64,000 nt of DNA from the NCBI RefSeq assembly GCF_003610455.1, contig NZ_RAQK01000001.1, forward strand, positions 2,523,153 to 2,587,152, read 5' to 3'. This stretch comes from Sulfitobacter guttiformis (GTDB lineage: Bacteria > Pseudomonadota > Alphaproteobacteria > Rhodobacterales > Rhodobacteraceae). The position numbers and the translations under genes are program-made. The notes below the pieces were generated by a model. That model saw only the letters and a program-made list of their open reading frames with translations, had not been told where the DNA came from and did no database searches. Of the stretch, positions 59,228-63,572 are shown one piece after another (the first letter of the stretch is position 1; each line of letters opens with the position of its first letter).

Positions 59228-60262
59228 CTATGCGGATTCGCGCAATTTCAACTCGCCATCAAAGAGCGTGATTTCAGGCTCATCCCCTGAAACCTCCCCG
59301 CGAATGATCTGCATGATCCTTGAAACGGCTTCCTCGCCAATGGCATCCGTGTTTTGGGCAACGGTGGTGAGTGCGGGGGTCAGAAAGGGGCACAGCGGGT
59401 AATCATCGTGCCCCGCGATCCGCAATCCGCCCTTTGTACCGCGCGAAGGGGAGAGCCCATGCTGCGCTGCCGCGCGGAGAGCGCCGATCGCGACACGGTC
59501 ATTCGCGCAGAGAATCGAGCGATCCGTCAAGCGTCCTTGCGCAAACGCATCCCCCAGAACAGCCTCTCCATGCTCTTCGAAATACCCGTTTTCCCTGACC
59601 GCTTCGGTCCCAAGAATTTCCGGCTCAAACCCCAATTTCTCCATACGCGCGATATATGCGACTTCGCGCTCAAGGGCGTTGAAATTGACCCGCGGCATGG
59701 CGAGAAAAGCGGGAGGGTCGCCGACCCGACATAGGTATTCAGTAATTAACCCAGTACTTTGGGTGTGGTTTGACCCCACAAAATCAACGTTCGGCATTGA
59801 TTTGGGGCGCGAATCCAGCAACACAAAAGGCATCCGTGATTTGAGCCGCAGATGCACAGACTGGTCACTCTGATCGCCCAGCGGAGCCACAAGGGCCCCA
59901 TCGACATTCATCGACATCAGGGTCTCGGCGGCACGCGCTTCGATCGCGGGATCGGAGTGGGAGCATTGTGTGATAACGGTCATGCCCGCTTCAAAGGCGG
60001 CGACTTCAACAGATTGCAGGAGCTTGGTGAAGAACAGGTCATTAAGATAAGGAATGATGACCCCTATAATGCCTGTCGTCTTGCGGTTCAGGCGGGTCGC
60101 GAAGAAATTTGGAACATATTCAACGCGCTCGAGTCCTGCTTGGATACGTTCGACTGTCTTTGTCTTGACCGAGCCCGGATCCTGAAAAAAACGCGAGAGG
60201 GTTGGCCTTGATACGCCAATTGCGACCGACAATTCTTCCATAGTCTTAATGCGGGGCTTCAT
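59228..60262 (-). CDS. LacI-family transcriptional regulator of polyol genes
   Basis: A 344-residue regulator. The N-terminal HTH and hinge read MKPRIKTMEELSVAIGVSRP, TLSRFFQDPGSVKTKTVERI and GLERVEYVPNFFATRLNRK. The sugar-binding domain has TGIIGVIIPYLNDLFFTKLL and DRSILCANDRVAIGALRAAA. It likely represses the operon until a polyol binds. Its own upstream region has the same operator, suggesting autoregulation. It could read through into smoE, as the genes are in the same direction 104 bases apart. Confidence 0.92.
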   Translation of the reverse strand: MKPRIKTMEELSVAIGVSRPTLSRFFQDPGSVKTKTVERIQAGLERVEYVPNFFATRLNRKTTGIIGVIIPYLNDLFFTKLLQSVEVAAFEAGMTVITQCSHSDPAIEARAAETLMSMNVDGALVAPLGDQSDQSVHLRLKSRMPFVLLDSRPKSMPNVDFVGSNHTQSTGLITEYLCRVGDPPAFLAMPRVNFNALEREVAYIARMEKLGFEPEILGTEAVRENGYFEEHGEAVLGDAFAQGRLTDRSILCANDRVAIGALRAAAQHGLSPSRGTKGGLRIAGHDDYPLCPFLTPALTTVAQNTDAIGEEAVSRIMQIIRGEVSGDEPEITLFDGELKLRESA

Positions 60263-60736
60263 GGTTTCAGCGTCCTTTGATCGGTGTCTGACCTATCATA
60301 TAGGCCTGAGGGTGCGCGTCGAGATAAATTTACGCTTGTAAATTAATTTTGACCCTTTCTTTTACATATTGGGTGTGAAGGTGGCATTTAAAGCAATGCA
60401 AGTTGCTCTTAGATTGAGTTTGGTCAGACGTATTGATCCAGTAAAAACCTGCTCATGCTCTACTGAAGAAAAATGGCGATGAGCATGCAATGCACGGGAG
60501 CAGTGAACGTTTGAGGCTGCCCTGGAATATCCGACAGTCATGCATCAGGCTGCATTGGTGAGTTTGGGCTCGAACGGCGGAAAGCGGACCTTCGCTGCAA
60601 GCGCGAAATCTGAGATCAGCATGCGAAGATGCAGACCCTCAATATAGAAATTGTATGCATGTGTATTGGAAGCCCGCTCTGAGCCCTTACTACCATTTGA
60701 TTGACGCGCGATCTTCCCGGCGATAGCAAGTATTTC
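60263..60736. other. Intergenic between lacI-type gene and trpS leader
   Basis: About 470 bases with no supported gene. It contains the LacI-type operator at 60,329 and an inverted copy of the GAAGGTCCG motif at 60,585-60,593. Confidence 0.45.
60329..60342. promoter_or_regulatory. LacI-family operator before the regulator gene
   Basis: TTTACGCTTGTAAA, matching the smoE operator (TTTACGCATGTAAA when read on the minus strand) in 13 of 14 bases. It is 67 bases upstream of the regulator start. Confidence 0.65.
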
Positions 60737-60784
60737 ATGGAAAACACGATAATCATCGCAATGAATTGGTGGCTGGCCTCCTGA
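60737..60784 (+). CDS. trpS leader peptide with tandem Trp codons
   Basis: Reads MENTIIIAMNWWLAS, stop. Two adjacent TGG codons lie at 60,767-60,772, four codons before the end; an internal ATG gives MNWWLAS. Tandem Trp codons in such a short frame directly upstream of a Trp-tRNA synthetase gene, with alternative hairpins following, fit a ribosome-mediated attenuator. The ribosome site is not strong. Confidence 0.65.
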   Translation: MENTIIIAMNWWLAS

Positions 60785-60845
60785 CAGGGTGGCCGGATTA
60801 CCAAACGTATTCCGAGGCCGCCGCATGGGCGGCCTATTGTTTTCC
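60773..60845 (+). promoter_or_regulatory. Trp-responsive transcription attenuator of trpS
   Basis: Four segments can pair in exclusive ways. CTGGCC (60773-60778) pairs with GGCCGG (60791-60796). GGTGGCC (60788-60794) pairs with GGCCGCC (60816-60822). AGGCCGCC (60815-60822) pairs with GGCGGCCT (60828-60835), the last with a five-base loop and followed by ATTGTTTT, a terminator. Stalling at the Trp codons would cover segment 1 and favour 2:3, allowing trpS transcription when charged tRNA-Trp is low. Confidence 0.65.
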
Positions 60846-60888
60846 AAGCTTCCCAATGCACCGCCTCTCGTTTCAGGGGAAGAAGCAA

Positions 60889-61890
60889 ATGAACAGACCA
60901 ACTATTCTGACCGGCGACCGCACAACGGGACCGCTTCACATCGGGCACTATGCAGGCTCGCTTGCAAACCGGCTGCGCTATCAGGACAGCCATGAACAAT
61001 TTCTTTTGCTGGCTGATACCCAGGCTCTAACCGACAACGCCAATGATACGGAGAAGGTGCGGCGAAGCGTGATCGAGGTCGCGCTGGATTATCTGGCCGT
61101 GGGCATTGATCCCGCGCGCACGACCATCTGTCTGCAATCACACCTGCCGGCGCTGGCCGAGTTGTCGATGCTCTACCTAAACTTTGTCACGGTCGCGCGG
61201 CTCGAACGAAACCCGACGATCAAAGACGAGATCCGCGCCCGCGGATTCGGGCGCGATATTCCGGCTGGATTTCTGTGCTATCCGGCAGCGCAGGCGGCGG
61301 ACATCACGGCCTTCAAGGCGACCATCGTGCCGGTCGGTGAGGATCAGGCCCCGCTCATCGAGCAAACGAACGAGATCGTGCGGCGCATCAACGCAACAGC
61401 AGGCAGCTCCGTTCTGCCCGAGGCGCAGGCGATCATCCCCAAGTTGGGCCGGTTGCCTGGTATCGACGGCAAGGCCAAGATGTCTAAATCCGGAGGCAAC
61501 GCAATCGCTCTGTCCGCATCTTCGGAGCAGATCCGAAGTGCCGTCAAAGCGATGTTCACAGATCCGAACCACCTGCGCGTTAAAGACCCGGGCTGCATTG
61601 AAGGCAATGTGGTCTTCACCTATCTTGACGCCTTCGATCAGGACCAGGACGGGCTTGCCGAGCTCAAGGGACAATATCAGCGCGGCGGGCTTGGCGATGG
61701 CAAGATCAAGGCGCGTCTGGAAGCGATCCTTCAGGAGCTCATAGGCCCAATTCGCCAGCGTAGGGCACAGCTTGCCGAGGACCGAGGCTACATTCTTGAG
61801 GTGATCAAAGAAGGCACGGCACGGGCGCGCGACCGCACTGAGGCGACAAAGCGGGATGTGGTGAGTGCCTTGGGCCTATTCCAATTGTAG
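60889..61890 (+). CDS. trpS: Tryptophanyl-tRNA synthetase
   Basis: From ATG 60889 (AGGGGAAGAAGC just upstream; the frame stays open leftward through the attenuator, which is not coding) the product has 333 residues. It is a class I synthetase: HIGH-like PLHIGHYAGSLANRL near residue 17, LLADTQALTDNAND, GEDQAPLIEQTNEIVRRIN, and the signature loop GKAKMSKSGGNAI near 196. It charges tRNA-Trp. Its isolated position beside a sugar operon and an integrase suggests a second, inducible copy. Such copies can give resistance to TrpRS inhibitors such as indolmycin, but this is inference. Confidence 0.93.
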   Translation: MNRPTILTGDRTTGPLHIGHYAGSLANRLRYQDSHEQFLLLADTQALTDNANDTEKVRRSVIEVALDYLAVGIDPARTTICLQSHLPALAELSMLYLNFVTVARLERNPTIKDEIRARGFGRDIPAGFLCYPAAQAADITAFKATIVPVGEDQAPLIEQTNEIVRRINATAGSSVLPEAQAIIPKLGRLPGIDGKAKMSKSGGNAIALSASSEQIRSAVKAMFTDPNHLRVKDPGCIEGNVVFTYLDAFDQDQDGLAELKGQYQRGGLGDGKIKARLEAILQELIGPIRQRRAQLAEDRGYILEVIKEGTARARDRTEATKRDVVSALGLFQL

Positions 61891-62180: not shown

Positions 62181-63572
62181 TCAGAATAGATATGCAAATG
62201 TAACGAGCCAGACCGACAACACAACGCCACAGATCAACGTGTAGGCACCATTCCACACCAATCCGACGCGGGTTGCGCTTATACCGCCAAATGAACCTAT
62301 CAGAAGGGTCGTCGCCGTGAATGGCGAACTCGCACCGCTCAGCGCCCATCCCGATGTGATCGCGACAACGATCGCTATCGGCTGCACTCCAAGATCAGTG
62401 GCTGTCGGAATGAGCGGCGCAATCAGCGTAACGGCAAGGATGGGGTTCATGCCGATCTGTCCAGCCAACGGGATGATCCAGACTAACGATACCAGAATGA
62501 TCCAGGCCGGTAGGTAAGACGGGTCGAACCCGGTCGCCTGCATCATTGGAGCAAACAGTTGCGACCCCGCTGTGCCAATGAAACCCGCCATCATCAGCAA
62601 GGTCAGCTCCCCACGATAGCTGGGAAGCTCTTGCAGCACGTAAGCCTTGATATGTCCGCACGTGGTAGAAACTGGATTTTCGTTCCAATGCTGAAGAAGC
62701 ATCCAAACAACCGCGATGCAAGGCACTAGGATAGCGACAATACCCACCACTCGAACCTGTGTCAGCGCGCTCAGTGTCACCACGCCAACGAGCAAAACCG
62801 CCAACAATAGCGCCAGCGGTAGCATCGTTGCCCAGGTTCCTTCCGGGGCGCTGCGGACCGGCTTAACTGTCAGCCGAGGCTTGAAGATCGAGTCAAGTGA
62901 CCAGCCGATCCCTGCAAGCAGGAACGATGTGATCAAGCCTGGAACCAATGCCTCGCCCCAGCTGGTGTCCGGAATGACGCTGACAGTGATCGCAACCGCA
63001 AAGGAAAGCGGCGACCATGGCAAGGCCGAGACAAAGGCGCGTTGAATTGCTAGAAGCATCCGCCGAATACGGTGCCTGCGGATTTCCAGATTGGGTTCGG
63101 AGTTCGCATTGGCTGTCGCCAGCGAACCAAGCAGTTGAAGCGACCCGTAGTTCAGAAGTAAGGCAAACGCTTGGCCGCCAACGGTCAATGCTGCATAGCG
63201 CCTGCCAGGGGGCTGACCTGCGAGGAAGGTTCCGGCTCGCTGGATCGCCGGAGATGTCTGCGCCACCGTACGAAGCGTTGACAGCGCGGTGAAAAAGGCG
63301 CCGATGAACGCAGCGGTTTCGAGCCCGCGCGTAATGATCAAGCGCCAATCAGTGTTCGTGGCAACCAGCGAGATACTGATGAGCATGGCCACGGCGACAA
63401 ACGCCTTGCGGGACCATCGCACCTGAAAAAGAAGGATCGCAACGACGACAAGAACGAGAAGCGGTTTGGCAGGCTGCGTCCACTCTGCGACACCCCATTC
63501 CCTGCAAATTACAAGCGCTGTGATAGCGCAAAGCAGAAGACCGACCGTTCTGTTTGCCAAACCGCCCATCAA
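62181..63572 (-). CDS. Multi-spanning membrane permease, substrate unknown
   Basis: A 463-residue very hydrophobic protein with about 12 helices. The first half has GGQAFALLLNYGSLQLLGSL and SALPWSPLSFAVAITVSVIP. The second has MMAGFIGTAGSQLFAPMMQA, IPLAGQIGMNPILAVTLIAP and TSGWALSGASSPFTATTLLI. Paired Gly/Asn-Pro motifs in re-entrant positions are like ion-transporter superfamily carriers (anion or organic acid permeases). I cannot name the family with confidence. It is convergent with trpS and not coupled to it. Confidence 0.7.
   Translation of the reverse strand: MMGGLANRTVGLLLCAITALVICREWGVAEWTQPAKPLLVLVVVAILLFQVRWSRKAFVAVAMLISISLVATNTDWRLIITRGLETAAFIGAFFTALSTLRTVAQTSPAIQRAGTFLAGQPPGRRYAALTVGGQAFALLLNYGSLQLLGSLATANANSEPNLEIRRHRIRRMLLAIQRAFVSALPWSPLSFAVAITVSVIPDTSWGEALVPGLITSFLLAGIGWSLDSIFKPRLTVKPVRSAPEGTWATMLPLALLLAVLLVGVVTLSALTQVRVVGIVAILVPCIAVVWMLLQHWNENPVSTTCGHIKAYVLQELPSYRGELTLLMMAGFIGTAGSQLFAPMMQATGFDPSYLPAWIILVSLVWIIPLAGQIGMNPILAVTLIAPLIPTATDLGVQPIAIVVAITSGWALSGASSPFTATTLLIGSFGGISATRVGLVWNGAYTLICGVVLSVWLVTFAYLF

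Follow-up and report, generated by a model that had tools for sequence, protein, structure and literature searches.

A ribosome-mediated transcription attenuator very probably controls the accessory tryptophanyl-tRNA synthetase gene of Sulfitobacter guttiformis

The gene trpS2 of Sulfitobacter guttiformis, which encodes an accessory tryptophanyl-tRNA synthetase (TrpRS), is very probably controlled by a ribosome-mediated transcription attenuator. The gene was analysed within a window, that is the whole stretch of 64,000 nucleotides of DNA, and the features described below lie on its plus strand unless stated otherwise. Attenuation by the ribosome had been proposed in a sequence-only reading of the window, and the comparison of homologous loci supported the proposal through a recurring tandem-Trp leader, alternating stems, a terminator and a link between the leader and accessory trpS genes. 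The leader and its codons, the stems, the terminator, the spacing of the promoter and the second-trpS context were all read from the sequence and its relatives.

The trpS2 gene and its enzyme

The gene trpS2 (60889..61890) encodes a protein of 333 aa, which scored 225 bits against TIGR00233 (cut-off 176.75) and also matched PF00579. The nearest solved structures were the TrpRS II chains 2a4m and 1yi8 (376 bits), which we take to be from Deinococcus radiodurans. The gene stands alone: its neighbours, a LacI-type regulator gene (59228-60262) and a long frame (62181-63572), both lie on the opposite strand. The presence of a second trpS in the genome had been left as a point to check; a housekeeping trpS was found, 29% identical to trpS2. 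Distribution of trpS2 in the family is patchy: it was found at E 1e-80 or better in 12 of 295 genomes including its own, all 12 of which have the housekeeping trpS too, and the single genus-mate among the 295 is without it. Plasmid records matching trpS2 at E 1e-60 numbered 91, some of them chromosome-sized, with 19 at 60% identity or more; a relative on a Roseibium aggregatum plasmid record is 81.4% identical. No cluster of neighbour genes spans more than 8 of the 55 leader-bearing loci described below, within flanks that reached 3 kb at the longest and 1.5 kb for some loci, and most of the clusters listed came from one Rhizobium group. Two loci, L010 and L011, are identical over 460 bases around the trpS2 start; their bins are named Nitrospira and Parvibaculum, the isolate names are similar, and one of the two is probably mis-binned.

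The protein was aligned with the housekeeping TrpRS. R11 of the trpS2 protein replaces the Q of the housekeeping motif GIQPSG, a residue considered here with the indolmycin contacts, and Q45 replaces the H of DLHAIT; the Asp of AADI and the Gln of GEDQ are retained. By the matching of numbers in our own alignment, the H of DLHAIT was taken as H43, the AADI Asp as D132 and the GEDQ Gln as Q147, the three residues given as indolmycin determinants of the B. stearothermophilus TrpRS in passages of PMC4899734. Taken together, these residues fit an inhibitor-tolerant backup TrpRS and do not show it.

Leader and alternating stems in the window

The leader open reading frame (60737..60784) was read directly from the sequence and comprises 15 codons encoding MENTIIIAMNWWLAS, with ATG at 60737, the putative regulatory codons TGG TGG at 60767..60772 and the stop codon TGA at 60782-60784. 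Segment 1 (TGGTGGCTGGCC, 60767..60778), segment 2 (GGTGGCCGG together with the 3' arm of stem 1:2, 60788..60804) and segment 3 (GAGGCCGCCGCAT, 60814..60826) can form alternative stems. Stem 1:2 pairs 60766-60778 with 60791-60804, stem 2:3 pairs 60788-60794 with 60816-60822, and stem 3:4, which is GC-rich and has 8 bp, pairs 60815-60822 with 60828-60835. The three are mutually exclusive in the window sequence, in the alignments and in the folding of the nascent RNA. The T-rich tract ATTGTTTT at 60836-60843 follows stem 3:4 directly and forms with it the predicted terminator hairpin (60815..60843); it is slightly poorer than the TTTGTTTT of close relatives and ends 45 nt before the trpS start at 60889. 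These results are in accordance with the sequence-only reading, which had described a 15-codon frame with two adjacent TGG codons, three mutually exclusive stems and a GC-rich hairpin as the last of them, all close upstream of the trpS start. Further on, segment 5 (ATGCACCGCCTC, 60856..60867) can pair with segment 3 and partly with the Shine-Dalgarno (SD) region of trpS (AGGGGAAG, 60875..60882), which takes part in a small hairpin with CCTCT at 60864-60868.

The fold of 60720-60890 was calculated at -63.9 kcal/mol against -50.2 kcal/mol (sd 3.75) in 200 dinucleotide shuffles, giving z = -3.65, and none of the 200 shuffles was as low. An open frame on the minus strand (60545-60901) runs antisense to the leader and is shared by six close relatives including the window; most likely it merely follows from the conservation of the leader DNA.

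Conservation of the leader among trpS homologues

Loci were taken from the 80 best of 577 relatives in named genomes and from the matches in the family, which gave 84 distinct loci including the window. Dropped before this count were L002 (a housekeeping gene), L014 (no upstream sequence), L093 (cut gene), five rows with the same upstream sequence as another row (L011, L084, L085, L087 and L090) and L092, which lies on the contig of L025. A leader was called where an ATG frame of at most 24 sense codons with an in-frame TGGTGG and a stop soon after was located 60-240 nt upstream of trpS. By this rule 54 of the 84 loci have a tandem-Trp leader, and the number rises to 55 with L029, in which the frame with the tandem Trp continues for longer after these codons. 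Applied to random windows taken from these loci, the rule was satisfied by 68 of 33,600 (0.2%); it was satisfied by 22 of 16,800 shuffles and by none of 13 upstream regions of housekeeping trpS. The leader peptide outside the tandem Trp varies among the loci. The 29 loci without leader are 20 from Acinetobacter, 7 from Cupriavidus, L045 and L071; L045, which has 10 residues from the start of its match to a stop, was counted as a miss among the 84 and kept outside the tree.

The presence of the leader follows the accessory status of trpS. At least two trpS were found in all 26 leader-bearing genomes checked, 15 of 15 and 11 of 11 in two separate checks; the family check covered 12 genomes, the twelfth of which (G130) has a cut gene and an unreadable leader, so that 11 were counted. 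Among 27 checked genomes with trpS as an accessory gene the leader is present in 26, the exception being L071 with two trpS and no leader. In one Bradyrhizobium genome (G693, that of L059) three trpS were over the family cut-off, with a weaker fourth match. Only one trpS was found in each of the nine leaderless genomes examined from Acinetobacter (5) and Cupriavidus (4); Acinetobacter gave additional matches of 42-51 bits, which are under the cut-off. Of the ten leaderless genomes examined in all, nine lack a second trpS as well. Within its genus, Cupriavidus basilensis (L044) is the sister of the rest and has both the leader and two trpS. Acinetobacter and Cupriavidus stand at two separate places of the tree, so that the nine genomes count as only some two independent events. 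From the link between leader and accessory gene a clear prediction follows for other duplicated synthetases.

The case named beforehand as one that would speak against attenuation was that of homologues without Trp codons and stems. Such homologues do exist, mainly the 27 Acinetobacter and Cupriavidus loci, of which the genomes checked have one trpS only; among genomes with an accessory trpS the leader is nearly always there, and the three stems are kept in the aligned loci with a terminator. The view that such control would be unusual for a second trpS in Alphaproteobacteria did not hold, since the leader is the rule among the relatives examined and no one-off.

Promoter and leaderless start

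A -35-like TTGACG (60701..60706) and, 17 nt after it, a -10-like TAGCAA (60724..60729) precede the leader in the window. The 55 leader loci were aligned at the leader ATG without gaps. TTG was found at -38..-33 in 53 of them, exactly at -36 in 35 (followed there as TTGNC in 29), TA at -14..-10 in 38, and C at -1 in 48. The promoter elements with their 17-nt spacer place the start of transcription at or beside the leader ATG. An SD core precedes the leader ATG in 3 of the 55 loci against 40 of 55 for the trpS start. The leader ORF is probably leaderless, with a predicted transcription start at or next to its ATG.

Two forms of the leader

The terminator form comprises 27 loci, mostly from Rhodobacterales with Kiloniella, some Bradyrhizobium and others, and includes the window. 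In all 27 the leader is followed by a hairpin and T-tract, and four of them (L017, L024, L028 and L091) were placed in this form because of their terminators. The sister form comprises 28 loci from Rhizobium, other Bradyrhizobium, Burkholderiales and others, chiefly Rhizobiales and Burkholderiales, and its leader mostly ends in WWRSx. Here 24 of 28 loci have no hairpin with T's; the other four have weak ones, one of which is the SD hairpin itself. The sister form is without a terminator yet retains the other stems, which suggests control of translation. This form, segment 5 beside the trpS SD and the predicted leaderless start all go beyond the sequence-only reading. In the tree one well-supported branch has 29 rows, 27 of which are of the terminator form; the remaining two are L014, without upstream sequence, and L025, without terminator. 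Alignment A1 was built from 23 of the 27 terminator loci (the four named above were left out) and A2 from 27 of the 28 others (without L025). Because the rows of both alignments were preselected for TGGTGG, their Trp codons are invariant by construction, which does not count as evidence.

Pairing and covariation of the stems

The pairing of each stem was counted over the cells of the alignments. In the 23 terminator-type loci, stem 1:2 was paired in 73.4% of cells as a whole and in 88.4% in its core (A1 49-54 with 67-72), the outer part (TTGGTGG with TTACCAA) being poorly kept at 60.4%. Stem 2:3 was paired in 96.3% and stem 3:4 in 98.9% of cells. The best slid controls for whole 1:2, 2:3 and 3:4 reached 53.0, 69.6 and 73.4%, respectively. 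Covariation in the terminator form was thin because the segments hardly vary: one compensated cell was found in 2:3 and two in 3:4, where two pairs are changed on both sides. In the sister form (27 loci) stem 1:2 was paired in 95.5% of cells, with covariation that none of 500 shuffles equalled. Stem 2:3 of this form was paired in 98.5% without covariation, and this count says little as a +3 slide gave 97.0%, the segment repeating itself. The covariation of the stems, put forward earlier as a check, came out in part: pairing is kept and 1:2 covaries more strongly in the sister form, and compensatory changes are few in the terminator form.

Proposed mechanism and its folding

From these elements we infer a stall of the ribosome, a termination and a physiological trigger, which would act in the following way. 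The A of the leader ATG is probably the first transcribed base, and the ribosome would load directly on the leaderless ORF. When Trp-tRNA is plentiful, the ribosome would pass both Trp codons to the stop and either cover segment 2 or let 1:2 form; in both cases segment 3 would pair with segment 4 and transcription would stop. When Trp-tRNA runs short, through a lack of tryptophan or inhibition of the housekeeping TrpRS, the ribosome would halt on the tandem TGG and mask segment 1, 2:3 would form, there would be no terminator, and trpS2 would be made. The spare trpS is probably switched on when tryptophan loading fails.

The switch was examined by folding of the 27 terminator-form leaders. In nascent RNA ending at segment 3, a mean of 7.25 pairs of 2:3 was formed with segment 1 masked, against 2.46 with segment 2 masked. 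The unmasked nascent RNA had on average 5.73 pairs of 1:2 against 2.14 of 2:3, and favoured 2:3 in 5 of the 27 loci (L010, L013, L020, L022 and L028). Complete leaders at equilibrium gave the terminator a mean probability of 1.00 unmasked and still 0.87 (median 0.98) with segment 1 masked. Equilibrium folding of complete leaders thus failed as evidence for antitermination, as the terminator wins in nearly all 27 loci, and antitermination would need the order of co-transcriptional folding.

Segment 5 and the ribosome-binding site of trpS

Segment 5 is likely to add a second layer of control at the trpS ribosome-binding site, as judged from its pairings. Its TGC is invariant in A1, and in single sequences its pairing with segment 3 extends to 14 consecutive pairs (L037). 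In the sister form the 3:5 pairing was found in 93.4% of cells and covaries, no shuffle of 500 being as high; the hairpin of segment 5 with the SD was found in 93.5% of cells, again with covariation and 0 of 500 shuffles. In the terminator form 3:5 was paired in 84.4% of cells, with a covariation that 33 of 500 shuffles attained and a +2 slide surpassed, and the pairing is interrupted in the window. The SD hairpin of the 27 terminator loci had a mean z of -1.36, with 76% of SD bases paired in the minimum free energy fold of the 34 nt before the start; in the window it is weak, with z only -0.39. A pairing of segment 2 with segment 5 as an SD mimic in the sister form was also tried and rejected as a general feature: it was seen in a by-eye subset only and was lost where 1:2 and 5:6 changed.

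These data bear on the strongest of the rival explanations, in which trpS2 is controlled mainly at translation, with segment 3 or 2 setting whether segment 5 hides the ribosome-binding site, and the terminator was added in a single clade. It would account for the keeping of segment 5 and the SD hairpin in both forms, for the many sister-form loci without any hairpin and T's, and for the confinement of the terminator form to one branch of the tree. The weak SD hairpin and the interrupted 3:5 of the window count against it, as does the covariation of 3:5 in the terminator form, which is not decisive. By the simplest logic a stall leads to 2:3, a free segment 5 and a closed SD, which opposes induction. 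Folding gave no clear sign either. The accessibility of the SD in the 27 terminator rows was 0.21 with no ribosome, 0.22 in the stall and 0.29 with the ribosome at the stop, and in 29 sister rows (the duplicate L092 included) 0.17, 0.25 and 0.21, so the states were not clearly separated in either form. Control chiefly on translation is considered unlikely.

A broader reading takes in both forms. Across Proteobacteria, accessory trpS genes may share one ancestral Trp-sensing leader which is used in two ways: with a terminator in Rhodobacterales, Kiloniella and some Bradyrhizobium, the window among them, or without one in Rhizobium, other Bradyrhizobium, Burkholderiales and others, where it would act on the trpS ribosome-binding site through the covarying 3:5 pairing. 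The terminator form would have both layers, and the leader would be lost once the gene became the sole trpS. We hold this reading tentatively, at somewhat less than an even chance. The closing of the SD by a stall counts against the simplest two-layer scheme and is the weakest point of the reading. The two forms offer a natural series for asking how one leader, with identical sensing codons and nearly identical alternating stems in both, can work by termination in one lineage and apparently by translation in another.

Other explanations and meaning

A plain terminator or a small RNA gene placed before trpS, with a short Trp-rich ORF that does not serve for sensing, appears quite improbable. 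A terminated leader would be a small RNA anyway, and rnTrpL of Sinorhizobium meliloti acts in trans as a small RNA according to passages of PMC7298713; this reading leaves aside that the tandem-Trp frame recurs at 54 of 84 loci against a chance of 0.2% with the rest of the peptide variable, that segment 2 alternates between segments 1 and 3 in nearly all aligned loci, and that leader and second trpS are absent together in nine of the ten leaderless genomes. That the upstream stretch is an N-terminal coding extension of trpS, and 3:4 a chance hairpin, is hardly credible and was rejected: the trpS frame is open from TTG 60766 (374 aa in the ORF list) and the open frame runs to 354-391 codons in homologues whose gene is complete, but the distance from the Trp codons to trpS shifts by one base in close relatives (-122 against -123, L003 and L008), which breaks the frame, an SD core precedes most trpS starts, and the hairpin with T's is kept in every terminator-form locus.

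Attenuation by the ribosome remains the preferred reading, and it would make trpS2 a widespread spare TrpRS tied to a sensor of charging. We infer that trpS2 serves as a backup for failed charging and is possibly tolerant of inhibitors that are Trp analogues. It is predicted to be made only at low Trp-tRNA, as would be required of a backup that steps in when the main enzyme is inhibited.

Comparison with known systems

A model, R1, was built from the 27 terminator-form loci and searched against 385 genomes of the class. It found 23 places in 20 genomes (E 1e-3, strict filters). Four of these are trpS2 loci, namely the window and L123-L125. At five others (L127, L128, L130, L133 and L142) a leader with WWW or WW precedes an ORF of the TrpE(G) type, assigned through anthranilate synthase models with 200-aa pieces under the full-length cut-offs, or by eye for L128. 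One match, L134, is a WW leader with a terminator-like element before a trpB-type ORF. L126 (1440-1760) and L129 (about 1440-1760, reverse complement) are elements of like shape with leaders that end in ...VYF... or ...AYF..., not WW; L126 precedes tyrS (143.8 bits, over cut-off) and L129 a small ORF whose S4-like match is weak. Both elements are possible Tyr-sensing attenuators. L131 (about 1500-1620) carries a tandem-Trp leader, MFTRENFDCFQDWWTVF, and a terminator-like hairpin before an ORF that has no NCBIfam match and is methyltransferase-like by eye. In the other 10 places inspected no tandem-Trp leader was seen. Elsewhere in its own genome R1 had no other match below E 0.1, and the next two (0.135 and 0.215) are without a Trp leader.

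The Rfam family Trp_leader (RF00513) scored 34.6 bits at 60761-60842 over the full model length 1-100, its gathering score being 41; at gathering it had no match in the window, nor in 15 loci (12 trpS2 and 3 trpE(G)). The trpS2 leader is thus similar to trpE(G) leaders found in its class, with the difference that four of the five trpE(G)-type leaders found here have WWW and the trpS2 leaders nearly always WW. The rnTrpL of S. meliloti, which in passages of PMC7298713 starts at the trpL ATG, senses Trp, has a terminator and stands before trpE(G), shares with the present element the leader ORF at the 5' end, the Trp sensing and the terminator; its target is biosynthetic, unlike trpS2.

No report of an alphaproteobacterial or proteobacterial trpS attenuator was found in the open-licence literature; the likeliest place for one, Vitreschak et al. 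(2004, FEMS Microbiol Lett), is known from its citation. The word trpS is absent from the main text of PMC2965389, PMC3766115 and PMC1273637.

In Streptomyces coelicolor, the gene under such control is reportedly trpRS1. Ribosome-mediated transcription attenuation of an auxiliary antibiotic-resistant TrpRS was described by Vecchione and Sello (2010, J Bacteriol 192:3565, known from its citation in PMC4787780), and S. coelicolor has two trpS (Kitabatake et al. 2002, as cited in PMC9437257). The target is an auxiliary TrpRS as here, but the host is an actinobacterium, and the likeness was drawn from the title of the paper. A candidate classical attenuator was predicted before trpS2 of Streptomyces avermitilis in passages of PMC1262725; that prediction is actinobacterial, whereas the present element spans many proteobacterial genera.

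The translational attenuators of the erm/cat type stall on the drug. The sister form likewise has an SD hairpin after a leader with likely stall codons, but it would presumably stall on uncharged tRNA. The element of trpS2 is a variant of a known attenuator type, with a known mechanism in a proteobacterial group, and what is unusual in this group of elements appears to be the partner of segment 3 beside the SD and the sister form without a terminator.
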